Source: Bacilli bacterium
GTDB lineage: Bacteria; Bacillota_I; Bacilli_A; RFN20; CAG-288
Length of the DNA stretch: 33,569 bases
Direction: 5' to 3'
Assembly (NCBI GenBank): GCA_022780765.1
Contig: JALEUS010000052.1
Span: forward strand, 1 to 33,569
The translations under genes and the position numbers were made by a program. The notes under the pieces were generated by a model. That model was not told the DNA's origin. It was given only the letters and a program-made list of their open reading frames with translations, and searched no databases. Shown in pieces: positions 486 through 22,752 of the stretch. Each line of letters starts with the position of its first letter. The stretch's first letter is position 1.

Positions 486-514
486 TTGGTTTCTTTTATC
501 TTTCATATTAAAAT
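486..514 (+). promoter_or_regulatory. Candidate sigma-A type promoter for the riboswitch/P-ATPase transcript
   Basis: TTGGTT (486-491), 17-nt spacer, TAAAAT (509-514). The predicted start is about 7-8 nt downstream, right at the 5' strand of the aptamer P1 helix (522). Confidence 0.45.
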
Positions 515-521
515 ATGTTAA

Positions 522-611
522 GTAGGGGAGTAATTTGCTTAGCTTTTCTCGTCACCACGTTATTTGATAACCGGGAGAGCCACAATAATGAATTGTGTAA
601 TGAGACCTACA
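522..611 (+). ncRNA. yybP-ykoY family (Mn2+-sensing) riboswitch
   Basis: Conserved blocks GGGGAGTA (525-532), CTCGTCA (548-554), CCGGGAGAGCC (571-581) and TGAGACC (601-607). P1 GTAGG (522-526)/CCTAC (606-610). Internal hairpins GTTAT-TTG-ATAAC (559-571) and CACAAT-AATGA-ATTGTG (581-597). Sits directly before the SD (AAGGA, 617-621) of a cation ATPase gene. Confidence 0.88.
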
Positions 612-630
612 TCAGAAAGGATGTTGCTTT

Positions 631-3552
631 ATGGAGAAAAAAGAGGAAATTATCAAAGAGGACCCGACTATCTATCCCGCATACAGCCATAGCAAAGAAG
701 ATGTGGTTGAAGAGCTTAAAACGGATAGTAAAAATGGTCTGTCTGTAAAAGAAGCAGAAGAGAGATTAAAAAAATACGGTCTAAACAAATTAGAAGAAGG
801 AAAGAAGACTTCGTTTTTGATGAAGTTTTTGAAGCAGTTTATCGAGCCTATGGTCATCGTTTTGCTTCTAGCTGCTTTAATTTCCTTTGTTATTTTTATA
901 ATCAATCTTTCTTTAGGAAAGAAATCAGATGAGTATATAGACTGCTGTGTCATATTAGCAATCGTTATCATCAATGCGCTGATAGGTGCTATTCAAGAGC
1001 AGAAAGCAGAGCAGTCGCTTGAAGCTTTAAAGAATCTTTCAACTCCTATGTGCACTGTCAAAAGAGAAGGAAAGCTTGTCAATATTAAAAGTGAAGAAGT
1101 AGTCATTGGAGATCTGGTCATACTTGAAGAAGGAAACATCGTTCCTGCTGATATCAGATTGATGACATCAGTAGATATGAAGTCTGATGAATCATCTTTG
1201 ACAGGTGAATCAGTTCCTGTTGAAAAGAATGATTCCATCATTTTAAAAGAAGACTCTTTGATAGGTGACAGAACAAATGTGGTCTACTCTTCCTGTCCTA
1301 TATCCTATGGAAGAGGAACTGGTATCGTCTTTGCGACTGGTAAAAACACTGAAGTAGGAAAGATAGCAGATATGCTATCCAACAGTGAGGATGATGAAAC
1401 TCCTCTGCAGAAGAAATTGAAAGTTCTCTCTAAACAGCTCGGTCTTATCTGTCTCATCATAGTCATCTTAACTTTCTTAGCAGGAATGGTCTGGTCGATT
1501 ATCACTGTCTTAACCTCTGCTAATAAAGATTGGGCATCTTTAGGTGGAGCTACTTTAAATCTGTTTGAGGAATCTATCGCTTTATCTGTAGCTGCTATTC
1601 CAGAAGGTTTATCTGCTATCGTCACCATCGCTTTAGCTTTAGGCGTATCTAAGATGGTCAAGGTCAACACGATAGTAAGGAAACTTCCTTCTGTTGAGAC
1701 CTTGGGAAGTGTGACTGTCGTCTGTTCAGATAAAACAGGAACTTTGACTCAGAACAAGATGACTATCAAAAAGGTCTATCTCAATGAGAAGTATTTAGAA
1801 CTTGAAGATTCACTTAAAGATGATGAGAGCAAGTTTTTAGCTAAAGGTTTGATGCTCTGTTCAAATGCCTCTATCAATGGAGATAGATATGGTGATCCAA
1901 CTGAATTAGCTCTTCTTGATTATGCAAAACTGTTCTCTTATAACAAAGAAGAGATCGAAGAGAAAGAGGAAAGCAGAATCGATGAGCTTCCTTTTGATTC
2001 GGTAAGAAAAATGATGTCAGTAGAGACTACTTGTCATGGAAAGAGAATCATCTATACCAAAGGTGCTCTGGATTCTATCTTAAGATGCACGACAAGGATA
2101 TATAAAAATGGTCAGGTAGATAATATCACTGATGAAGATATTAAAAAGATTGAAGATGCTAGTTACAGCATGTCCAAAGAAGCTTACAGAGTCTTAGCTT
2201 TCGCTTACAGGGAAAACGATGGAAAGAAGATGAGTGAAGATGATCTTATCTTCTATGGTTTGGTTGGAATGATCGATCCTGAAAGAAAAGAAGCTAAACC
2301 TGCTGTCTTAAAACTTAAAGAAGCTGGTATCAGAACCATCATGATAACAGGTGACCATAAGGATACCGCTTTTGCAATAGCTTCAAATCTTGGTATAGCC
2401 GATAATATTTCTCAGTGCTGTTCAGGAGATGAACTGAACAGATTAAATGAGGAAGAACTCATTGAAAAGGTCAAAGATACAAATGTCTTTGCAAGAGTTT
2501 CTCCTACCAATAAAGTGCAGATTGTCAAAGCTTTAAAAGCAAGTAACAACATCGTTGCTATGACTGGAGATGGAGTCAATGATGCGCCATCTTTGAAAGC
2601 AGCTGATATCGGTATTGCAATGGGAATAACCGGAACAGATGTTGCAAAGGATGCAGCTGACATGGTTTTGACAGACGATAACTTCGCTTCAATTGAAAAA
2701 GCGGTGGAGGAAGGAAGAGGAATCTTCTCCAATGTCAAAAAATCTATTCTCTATCTGCTTTCATCTAACTTCGGTGAAGTTTTCGCGATGTTTATCACCC
2801 TTCTTTTAGGTTTTCCTTCTCCTTTAGCTACTTTGCAGATTCTGTGGATAAATCTGATCACAGATTCCTTACCAGCTATTGCTCTATCCATGGATAAGAA
2901 AAAGAAAGATATCATGAAAGAGAAACCCAAAGATCCTAAAGATGGTATCTTTGCAGGCGGTGGCTTAAGGTTGACTCTAGGTTACGGAGCAGTCATTTTT
3001 GTCATCACTTTCATTGCCTTTTTAATACCTGCTTTCATGATGATAAACAGCGATGCAGGAAGGAATTTAGGATGGAACAATGGTTGGGAAGGATTTGTCA
3101 ACTGTCTTAACTCAAGAGTGAGTGTAGATGGTGTATACAAGTACGTTGGAATCTCTTCTTCAGGAGTCATCTCTCCTTTCTACAATACAGAGGCCGAGTT
3201 AAATGCAGTTCAGTACTCTTTAGGATATCTCTCTGTGTATGAGAAATGTCAGACTTACGCTTTCACAGTCTTAGCTTTAGCACAGCTTTTCCACATGATA
3301 GGAATGACAGATGTGGATCGCTCATTTGTTCATGTCTTCAAAGATAAAAACTATATGCTTCTCATCTCCTTTATCTTCGGTCTATCCATGCAGGTATTGG
3401 TGACAGAGGTCAGCGGAATATCTTTGATCTTCTCAACTACCAGATTAGGTATCATCGATTGGCTGATACTTCTTGCTATGTCAACTACTCCTTTGATCGT
3501 CCACGAAGTTCTTGTTTTGTACAAGCATTTAAAAAAGAAGAGAGCAGTTTAA
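631..3552 (+). CDS. P2-type cation-transporting ATPase (Ca2+/Mn2+ type)
   Basis: 973 aa; TGES, SDKTGTLT phosphorylation motif, MTGDGVNDAPSLKAADIGIAMG hinge, N-terminal cation ATPase domain, multiple TM segments. Confidence 0.93.
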   Translation: MEKKEEIIKEDPTIYPAYSHSKEDVVEELKTDSKNGLSVKEAEERLKKYGLNKLEEGKKTSFLMKFLKQFIEPMVIVLLLAALISFVIFIINLSLGKKSDEYIDCCVILAIVIINALIGAIQEQKAEQSLEALKNLSTPMCTVKREGKLVNIKSEEVVIGDLVILEEGNIVPADIRLMTSVDMKSDESSLTGESVPVEKNDSIILKEDSLIGDRTNVVYSSCPISYGRGTGIVFATGKNTEVGKIADMLSNSEDDETPLQKKLKVLSKQLGLICLIIVILTFLAGMVWSIITVLTSANKDWASLGGATLNLFEESIALSVAAIPEGLSAIVTIALALGVSKMVKVNTIVRKLPSVETLGSVTVVCSDKTGTLTQNKMTIKKVYLNEKYLELEDSLKDDESKFLAKGLMLCSNASINGDRYGDPTELALLDYAKLFSYNKEEIEEKEESRIDELPFDSVRKMMSVETTCHGKRIIYTKGALDSILRCTTRIYKNGQVDNITDEDIKKIEDASYSMSKEAYRVLAFAYRENDGKKMSEDDLIFYGLVGMIDPERKEAKPAVLKLKEAGIRTIMITGDHKDTAFAIASNLGIADNISQCCSGDELNRLNEEELIEKVKDTNVFARVSPTNKVQIVKALKASNNIVAMTGDGVNDAPSLKAADIGIAMGITGTDVAKDAADMVLTDDNFASIEKAVEEGRGIFSNVKKSILYLLSSNFGEVFAMFITLLLGFPSPLATLQILWINLITDSLPAIALSMDKKKKDIMKEKPKDPKDGIFAGGGLRLTLGYGAVIFVITFIAFLIPAFMMINSDAGRNLGWNNGWEGFVNCLNSRVSVDGVYKYVGISSSGVISPFYNTEAELNAVQYSLGYLSVYEKCQTYAFTVLALAQLFHMIGMTDVDRSFVHVFKDKNYMLLISFIFGLSMQVLVTEVSGISLIFSTTRLGIIDWLILLAMSTTPLIVHEVLVLYKHLKKKRAV

Positions 3553-21504: not shown

Positions 21505-22752
21505 ATGGCTACTGTTCTTCTGATAATTATTTACATGATCTTCATATCATTAGGTTTACCAGATTCGATGTTAGGATCTTCTTTTCCTGCGATAGCTGAC
21601 AATATAAAGGCACCTATTCAGTTCACTTCTTACATTTCACCTATCACATCAATATGCACTATTCTCTCTTCTCTCTGCGCTCCTTTTTTGATAAAAAGAT
21701 TTAAAGAGCAGTACGTCATCTCTTTTTCAATCATGCTGACTGCTATAGGACTTTTGATCTTCTCCTTCGCAAGAGAAAACACGCTATATCTTCTTTTTAT
21801 TTCAGCTGTTCCTTTAGGATTAGGAGCAGGTGCAATCGATGCATCTATAAACAATTATGTTGCTTTACATTATAAAGCAATTCATATGAATTGGCTCCAC
21901 TGCTGCTGGGGAGTAGGAGCTTCGATTTCACCTATGATAATAGGGGCGTTCATAGATCCAAACAACAATTCCAAGGGATGGAATATCGGTATTTTAACAG
22001 TATCTATAATCCAGTTTGTAATCATGTTCATCTCTTTTATCTCTGTACCTCTGTGGAACAGAATGAAAGTCAAAGAAGATAAGAAGGAAGAGAAAAAGGA
22101 AGATTATAAATATGTAATACTTTTTAAAAATCCTGTTTTCTATCTCACTGTATTAGCTTTTTTCTGCTACTGCGGTCTTGAGACGACAATGGGACTGTGG
22201 ACTGGATCATATCTCAATTATGGAAAAGGATTTGATACTGCTCAAGCAGCTTCTTTATCTTCTTTCTTCTTCATCGGAATCACTGTCGGAAGATTCATTT
22301 CTGGTCCCTTATCATTGAAGATAAAAGAGAACAATATGATCAGGATAGGAGAGATAATCATCTCTATCTCAATGGTCTTTATGATCATCTCCTCCGTGTA
22401 TCAAGAGGAGTATACAAAGAGCCTTGCCTTAGCTTCTATTGTCATCTGCGGTTTAGGATGCGCTCCTATCTATCCAGCTATCATAAGATTGACTCCTTAC
22501 AGATTCTCCAAAGCAGGAAGTCAGAAAGCTATGTCATTAGAGGTTGCGATAGCCTACATTGGAAATCTGATATCTCCATTTATCTTTGGAGAGATTGCAA
22601 AAGCAATAAACAATTATCTTATTCTTCCTTACATTATTATCACTTTTCTATCTGTGATGATTCTCTGCCATGAGATAATCAATATCAGACTAAAGAAGAG
22701 AGATAGCATTTTAAATGATGAAGATAAGAAGAAGTATCTAGCAGAGGTGTGA
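21505..22752 (+). CDS. Major facilitator superfamily transporter (FucP/sugar-type-like)
   Basis: About 12 TM segments; GLPDSMLGSSFPAIA start typical of MFS; central loop rich in K/E. Confidence 0.8.
   Translation: MATVLLIIIYMIFISLGLPDSMLGSSFPAIADNIKAPIQFTSYISPITSICTILSSLCAPFLIKRFKEQYVISFSIMLTAIGLLIFSFARENTLYLLFISAVPLGLGAGAIDASINNYVALHYKAIHMNWLHCCWGVGASISPMIIGAFIDPNNNSKGWNIGILTVSIIQFVIMFISFISVPLWNRMKVKEDKKEEKKEDYKYVILFKNPVFYLTVLAFFCYCGLETTMGLWTGSYLNYGKGFDTAQAASLSSFFFIGITVGRFISGPLSLKIKENNMIRIGEIIISISMVFMIISSVYQEEYTKSLALASIVICGLGCAPIYPAIIRLTPYRFSKAGSQKAMSLEVAIAYIGNLISPFIFGEIAKAINNYLILPYIIITFLSVMILCHEIINIRLKKRDSILNDEDKKKYLAEV

Follow-up and report, generated by a model that had tools for sequence, protein, structure and literature searches.

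The window, the whole 33,569-nucleotide stretch of DNA analysed here, carries at positions 522–610 what its sequence identifies as a yybP-ykoY (manganese) riboswitch aptamer, a real element in compact form that lies just upstream of a P-type cation ATPase gene. The assignment to this class is based on structure, conservation, sequence and covariation, and Mn2+ is the presumed ligand. The element adds a member to an established class, its target gene is of a familiar kind, and streptococci already offer an example of this pairing. The features of the region are as follows.

486–514, + strand: probable promoter, TTGGTT (486–491), 17-nt spacer and TAAAAT (509–514), with a predicted start near 521
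522–610, + strand: aptamer, a P2-less three-way junction (covariance model match, fold, covariation)
522–526, + strand: 5' strand of P1.1, GTAGG, partner 606–610 (sequence; covaries, with 90.9% of cells paired over 79 sequences)
525–532, + strand: 5' strand of L1, GGGGAGTA, its first two G shared with P1.1 (sequence)
529, + strand: A529, where the class has its A-minor adenosine (528, 529, 531 and 532 invariant in 79/79)
533–535, + strand: 5' strand of P1.2, ATT, partner 599–601 (covaries AU/GC)
536–541, + strand: P1.2–P3.1 junction, 6 nt, too short for a P2 hairpin
542–548 and 550–551 with 572–580, + strand: P3.1, U549 bulged (fold, covariation)
552–558, + strand: L3 bulge, UCACCAC (fold)
554, + strand: A554, position of the invariant Mn2+-coordinating adenosine (A in 78/78 aligned sequences)
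559–563 with 567–571, + strand: P3.2 (fold, covariation)
581–597, + strand: P4 hairpin, CACAAT/ATTGTG, pairs 581–586/592–597 (fold; covariation at model pairs)
599–610, + strand: 3' strands of P1.2 (AAT), L1 (GAGA, 602–605) and P1.1 (CCTAC, 606–610), with AGA 603–605 invariant in 79/79
611–624, + strand: linker and Shine-Dalgarno sequence (SD), AAAGGA at 616–621 (AGAAAGGA at 614–621), with the ATG at 631
609–613 with 620–624, + strand: candidate OFF hairpin around the SD, ACATC/GATGT, seen in the free fold of 510–640
631–3552, + strand: P-type IIA cation ATPase, 973 aa (Pfam E1-E2_ATPase, Cation_ATPase_N, Cation_ATPase_C)

To search for related elements, we used a covariance model, R1, built from 14 leaders of ATPase orthologues in the window's own family, with Escherichia coli alx and mntP absent from the training set. 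The 14 training leaders fold alike when folded individually. Within the 33.6 kb window R1 matches a single site, 515–616, at 73.1 bits (E 2e-16), a score that belongs to a training row, the window being one of the 14. The model finds one site only in the whole genome of the window, and it matches 105 of the 245 genomes of the order at one site each, including families outside the training set. It also retrieves two proven Mn2+ riboswitches of E. coli, alx at 44.9 bits (E 3.6e-10) and mntP at 24.9 bits (E 3.4e-5); every other match in those stretches has an E-value of 1.5 or worse. The leader of a Streptococcus mgtA-type ATPase (locus L057) is retrieved at 22.5 bits (E 0.0096). The yybP-ykoY assignment made in an initial annotation of this DNA is thus borne out without Rfam, and the core blocks and perfect P1 helix it described are all in place, with five of five P1 pairs formed.

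Most of the features that define the class can be read directly from the element. The L1 loop, GGGGAGUA at 525–532, faces AGA at 603–605, and L3, with its Mn2+-coordinating adenosine (CGUCA ... CCGG), occupies 550–558 and 571–574. The legs P1 and P3, the internal L1 and L3 and the switch helix P1.1 are seen in both fold and covariation, and 20 nt (611–630) separate P1.1 from the ATG of the cation ATPase. The class-conserved bases GGGGAGUA, CGUCANNAC, CCGG and AGACC are all present within 522–610; as motifs, CGTCA lies at 550–554, CCGG at 571–574 and GAGACC at 602–607. The counterparts of A554 are the sensing adenosines A41 in Lactococcus lactis and A48 in Xanthomonas oryzae (PMC6754395). The four-way junction of P1–P4 is absent, there being no P2 and only the 6-nt junction at 536–541.

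The minimum-energy fold of the RNA from the predicted start (521–650) contains P1.1, P3.1, P3.2 and P4. Its single-sequence folding energy is not unusual (z −0.66) and is uninformative. RNAalifold on a MAFFT alignment (A1) recovered P3.2 only, so the structure was written from individual folds. When 79 sequences were aligned, 25 of 26 pairs had changed on both sides, and the covariation score was 0.698, versus 0.198 for shuffled and at most 0.139 for slid controls; this alignment was fitted to the model and so favours the structure, and the majority of its sequences lie outside the seed.

Control of a P-type ATPase, as originally proposed, is supported by synteny across the order. The element lies directly upstream of an orthologue of this ATPase in 65 of the 74 element-bearing loci examined there. 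The nine exceptions, in which it precedes other genes, are seven loci of family f3 together with L183 (genome G009) and L184 (G010). Within the window's family, the upstream sequence is intact for 18 orthologues, and 17 of these are preceded by the element; the exception is the orthologue in G002 (L093). Beyond the order, Erysipelothrix, Eubacterium, Traorella, Streptococcus and others also carry the element upstream of a homologous ATPase.

The general Rfam model tells a different story. The initial annotation had named a covariance search with RF00080 as its check and the lack of a significant hit as grounds for rejection. When this search was run, RF00080 gave no match to the window at its gathering score, none to 440–680 at E ≤ 10 and none across the window's genome; the element does not reach the cut-off of at least 45 bits, which is an operational threshold and not a property of the RNA. 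All Rfam models searched against the window returned only two sub-threshold chance matches. Among 117 genomes of the order, 0 contain a site at which RF00080 attains its cut-off, and it finds no match, even at E ≤ 1, in the Streptococcus mgtA-type ATPase leader. Because of these last two results, we regard the negative as uninformative and the refuting test as badly chosen. Even a clear Erysipelothrix member scores only 25.4 bits, in an alignment where helix P1 is not modelled. Set against the 105 of 245 genomes matched by the family-trained model, the 0 of 117 indicates that this order of uncultivated Bacilli with small genomes is rich in manganese riboswitches although RF00080 finds none above cut-off there, and therefore that RF00080-based surveys undercount the class. 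In the Streptococcus leader, Rfam instead names the stretch SSRC10 (RF02617, 'Streptococcus sRNA 10') at 79.2 bits; this annotation (L057:2878–2985) spans the Mn/Ca riboswitch and the terminator upstream of the mgtA-type ATPase. SSRC10 looks like a cis-element of the yybP-ykoY class that has been given the wrong name.

How does the junction compare with those of known systems? P2 is absent in 72 of the 79 sequences, where the P1.2–P3.1 junction is at most 9 nt and holds no hairpin; the relatives L098 and L096 have P2 and lack P4, like Streptococcus. Two crystal structures of the class, L. lactis yoaB and X. oryzae yybP-ykoY, show a four-way junction (PMC6754395). The window's element shares with them L1, L3, the sensing adenosine and P1.1, and its GAGACC recurs unchanged as the L1/P1.1 3' strand of X. 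oryzae; unlike the window's element, both have four helices, including P2 as well as P4. Passages of PMC9495176 and PMC11434433 that cite Martin et al. 2019 (NAR) describe the Streptococcus pneumoniae mgtA leader as a Mn/Ca-sensing yybP-ykoY riboswitch controlling a Mn2+/Ca2+ ATPase, and PMC9495176 calls it canonical, with a three-way junction. The Streptococcus mgtA (caxP) leader resembles the window's element in its L1/L3 core, its three-way junction and its position before a homologous ATPase (about 42% identity), but it has P2 and an intrinsic terminator and lacks P4, the opposite of the window's element on all three counts. E. coli alx and mntP share the core and the switch helix, whereas their targets are other Mn2+ exporters and their leaders are longer, with larger P4 and expression regions. 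On inspection, P1.2 of alx runs straight into P3, apparently without P2. Since alx appears P2-less and S. pneumoniae mgtA has a three-way junction, we view the P2-less form as variation within the class and not as a new class. The comparison indicates that P2 or P4 is dispensable while the L1/L3 sensing core is fixed, and the P2-less element offers a small natural construct for probing the effect of the junction on ion selectivity.

The ATPase itself has its best NCBIfam match to a PMR1-type Ca2+ model (660 bits, below the equivalog cut-off), and the nearest solved structures are the Listeria lmo0841 Ca2+-ATPase and human SPCA1. It belongs to type IIA and has the same ion-site residues as MgtA of Streptococcus: PEG in M4, N..E in M5, N..TD in M6 and Q in M8 are common to it and the Streptococcus pump, and an Oceanobacillus lmo0841-like pump differs at these M4, M5, M6 and M8 motifs. 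The residues are no proof of Mn2+ transport, because Bacteroidales homologues carry them too. Searches of the window's genome, which is about 91.5% complete, found one CDF transporter and one protein with an MntR/DtxR-type C-terminal domain, and no MntP or Nramp. Export of Mn2+ by the 973-aa ATPase, as first suggested, is plausible.

Transcription was originally proposed to start at P1 from TTGGTT-17-TAAAAT. This sequence is present, but its −35 hexamer matches at only 3 of 6 positions, below the scan threshold, and the pair fails the cut of at least 9 of 12. The −10 is backed by relatives, as TAAAAT sits at the conserved distance (10 nt). Of the 79 leaders, 47 have a promoter match of at least 9/12 whose −10 lies no more than 25 nt from GGGG (shuffles: mean 9.9, maximum 17), and with sigma-70-like sites in that many leaders it is likely that transcription generally starts at P1.

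P1.1 and the ATG are only 20 nt apart. A scan of 380–720 found no terminator-like site, in agreement with the earlier remark that none lies between P1 and the SD. Access to the SD had been suggested as the mode of control, and this proposal draws on the lack of a terminator and on a general tendency over leaders; for the window itself the prediction is not clear-cut. We compared the forced aptamer with the free ensemble in the 63 leaders whose start codon lies within 50 nt. With the aptamer imposed, the stretch between the SD and +9 became more accessible in 57 of the 63 (mean 0.49 free, 0.62 forced), and the gain for the native ribosome-binding site (RBS), 0.127, exceeded that of all 60 leader-swapped sets (0.099, sd 0.011). 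For the SD alone the change was from 0.42 to 0.61 (up in 48/63), a rise equalled by 1 of the 60 swaps. These results are suggestive only, because energy models omit metal-dependent docking and the leaders are related, not independent. Locking the aptamer in the window produced a modest change in the RBS region, from 0.37 to 0.61 for RNA starting at 515 and from 0.54 to 0.63 for 521–650. No opening is seen at the SD proper (0.66 to 0.44), and accessibility of the AUG drops in some constructs. Coupling of the aptamer to RBS exposure is thus plausible in these models, favoured over the 63 leaders and weakly for the window. For genus g25, the models predict nearly complete pairing between the SD and the P1.1 3' strand when the aptamer is unformed. 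The conserved GACCU of L1/P1.1 was considered as a general anti-SD and rejected: its pairing with the SD is about 1.0 in most g25 leaders, but the mean over the 63 is 0.23, and for the window the value is about 0. An OFF state computed with P1 pairs forbidden was also discarded; the constraint removed other pairs, and its cost was large even at a P1 probability of zero.

We propose that a rise in cytosolic Mn2+ would dock L1 (525–532/602–605) onto L3 (552–558), the metal sitting between the two loops and A554 serving as the sensing adenosine. Docking would stabilise the weak switch helix P1.1 (522–526/606–610), and the locked aptamer would keep leader strands off the ribosome-binding site. The pump would then be made at high Mn2+ and export the excess. 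The switch therefore probably turns the pump on at high manganese, and a translational read-out is most likely because there is no terminator in the 20 nt from P1.1 to the ATG. Taken as a whole, this account of a P2-less Mn2+ aptamer in the leader of an MgtA/YoaB-like ATPase, with a docking-stabilised P1.1 acting as a translational ON switch for Mn2+ export, is in our judgement very probably correct.

The alternatives differ in how much of this account they would overturn. The most radical, in which short motifs came together by chance in an AT-rich leader and there is no structured RNA, could appeal to the lack of an Rfam match, to the folding energy and to a second GGGGAGTA at 21908–21915, inside an MFS gene, which we take to be chance because the covariance model has no match there. 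It is refuted by recurrence across genomes, with single matches in the same place before the same gene, by the strong covariation and by the retrieval of alx and mntP, and we give it almost no credence. A second possibility keeps a yybP-ykoY-type aptamer and changes the physiological ligand to Ca2+, or Ca2+ plus Mn2+, with a Ca2+ efflux pump as the target. The solved structures nearest the ATPase are Ca2+ pumps, the enzyme has SERCA-like N/E/T/D residues, and in S. pneumoniae the mgtA aptamer, which likewise forms a three-way junction, reportedly binds Ca2+ more tightly than Mn2+ (PMC9495176). However, Mn2+ is the stronger activator of mgtA transcription in vitro (PMC9495176), and the window's element retains every class-specific base of the Mn2+ site, A554 included, so that a calcium sensor seems improbable here.

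The alternative we take most seriously, although we still consider it unlikely, is a Mn2+ aptamer read out by transcription, through a Rho-dependent or downstream terminator, or by mRNA stability, and not by SD access. Intrinsic terminators accompany the element in relatives outside the order and in family f3 (L069, L073, L078, L080, L164–L170), E. coli mntP couples its riboswitch with Rho (PMC11647493), and the calculations on the window give SD access weak backing. Against this, 380–720 holds no terminator-like site, P1.1 is close to the ATG, and the g25 prediction has the P1.1 3' strand almost completely paired with the SD. A bolder reading would make the P2-less form a distinct, order-wide subclass in which the altered junction shifts metal selectivity or affinity (e.g. 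towards Ca2+ or Ca2+/Mn2+ sensing) and which also controls an HflK-like SPFH protein in the sister family; this is speculative and doubtful. If true, a P2-less subclass before such a protein would link metal sensing to membrane-protease control.

Several loci place the element before other genes. At five loci of family f3, in five genomes (L164, L165, L167, L169 and L170), the RNA and an intrinsic terminator precede an SPFH/Band 7 membrane protein. This protein is HflK-like, below the equivalog cut-off, and is an unexpected target in a sister family; a literature search combining the class with SPFH terms gave no relevant report among the best matches. At L183 and L184, both in the window's genus, a yybP-ykoY-like leader with a terminator lies before a Na_Ca_ex family transporter, and in G009 this leader is additional to the P2-bearing element before the ATPase (L096). 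At L171 (369–469), the element is followed by a 64-aa ORF and then a Gly_transporter (UPF0126-type) gene, with a terminator-like stem between. At L162 (3072–3165, minus strand), it lies a few nt before a gene for a 570-aa membrane protein, with an ABC transporter adjoining; this protein has no Pfam match (first 400 aa searched) or NCBIfam match. The window itself continues downstream of the ATPase with an ordinary housekeeping cluster (3649–25181) that includes HprK, Lgt, WhiA, PGK, TIM, Bax1-I, SecA and a peptide release factor, as well as YitT, UvrB, MFS, PP-loop and ABC transporter ATPase genes.
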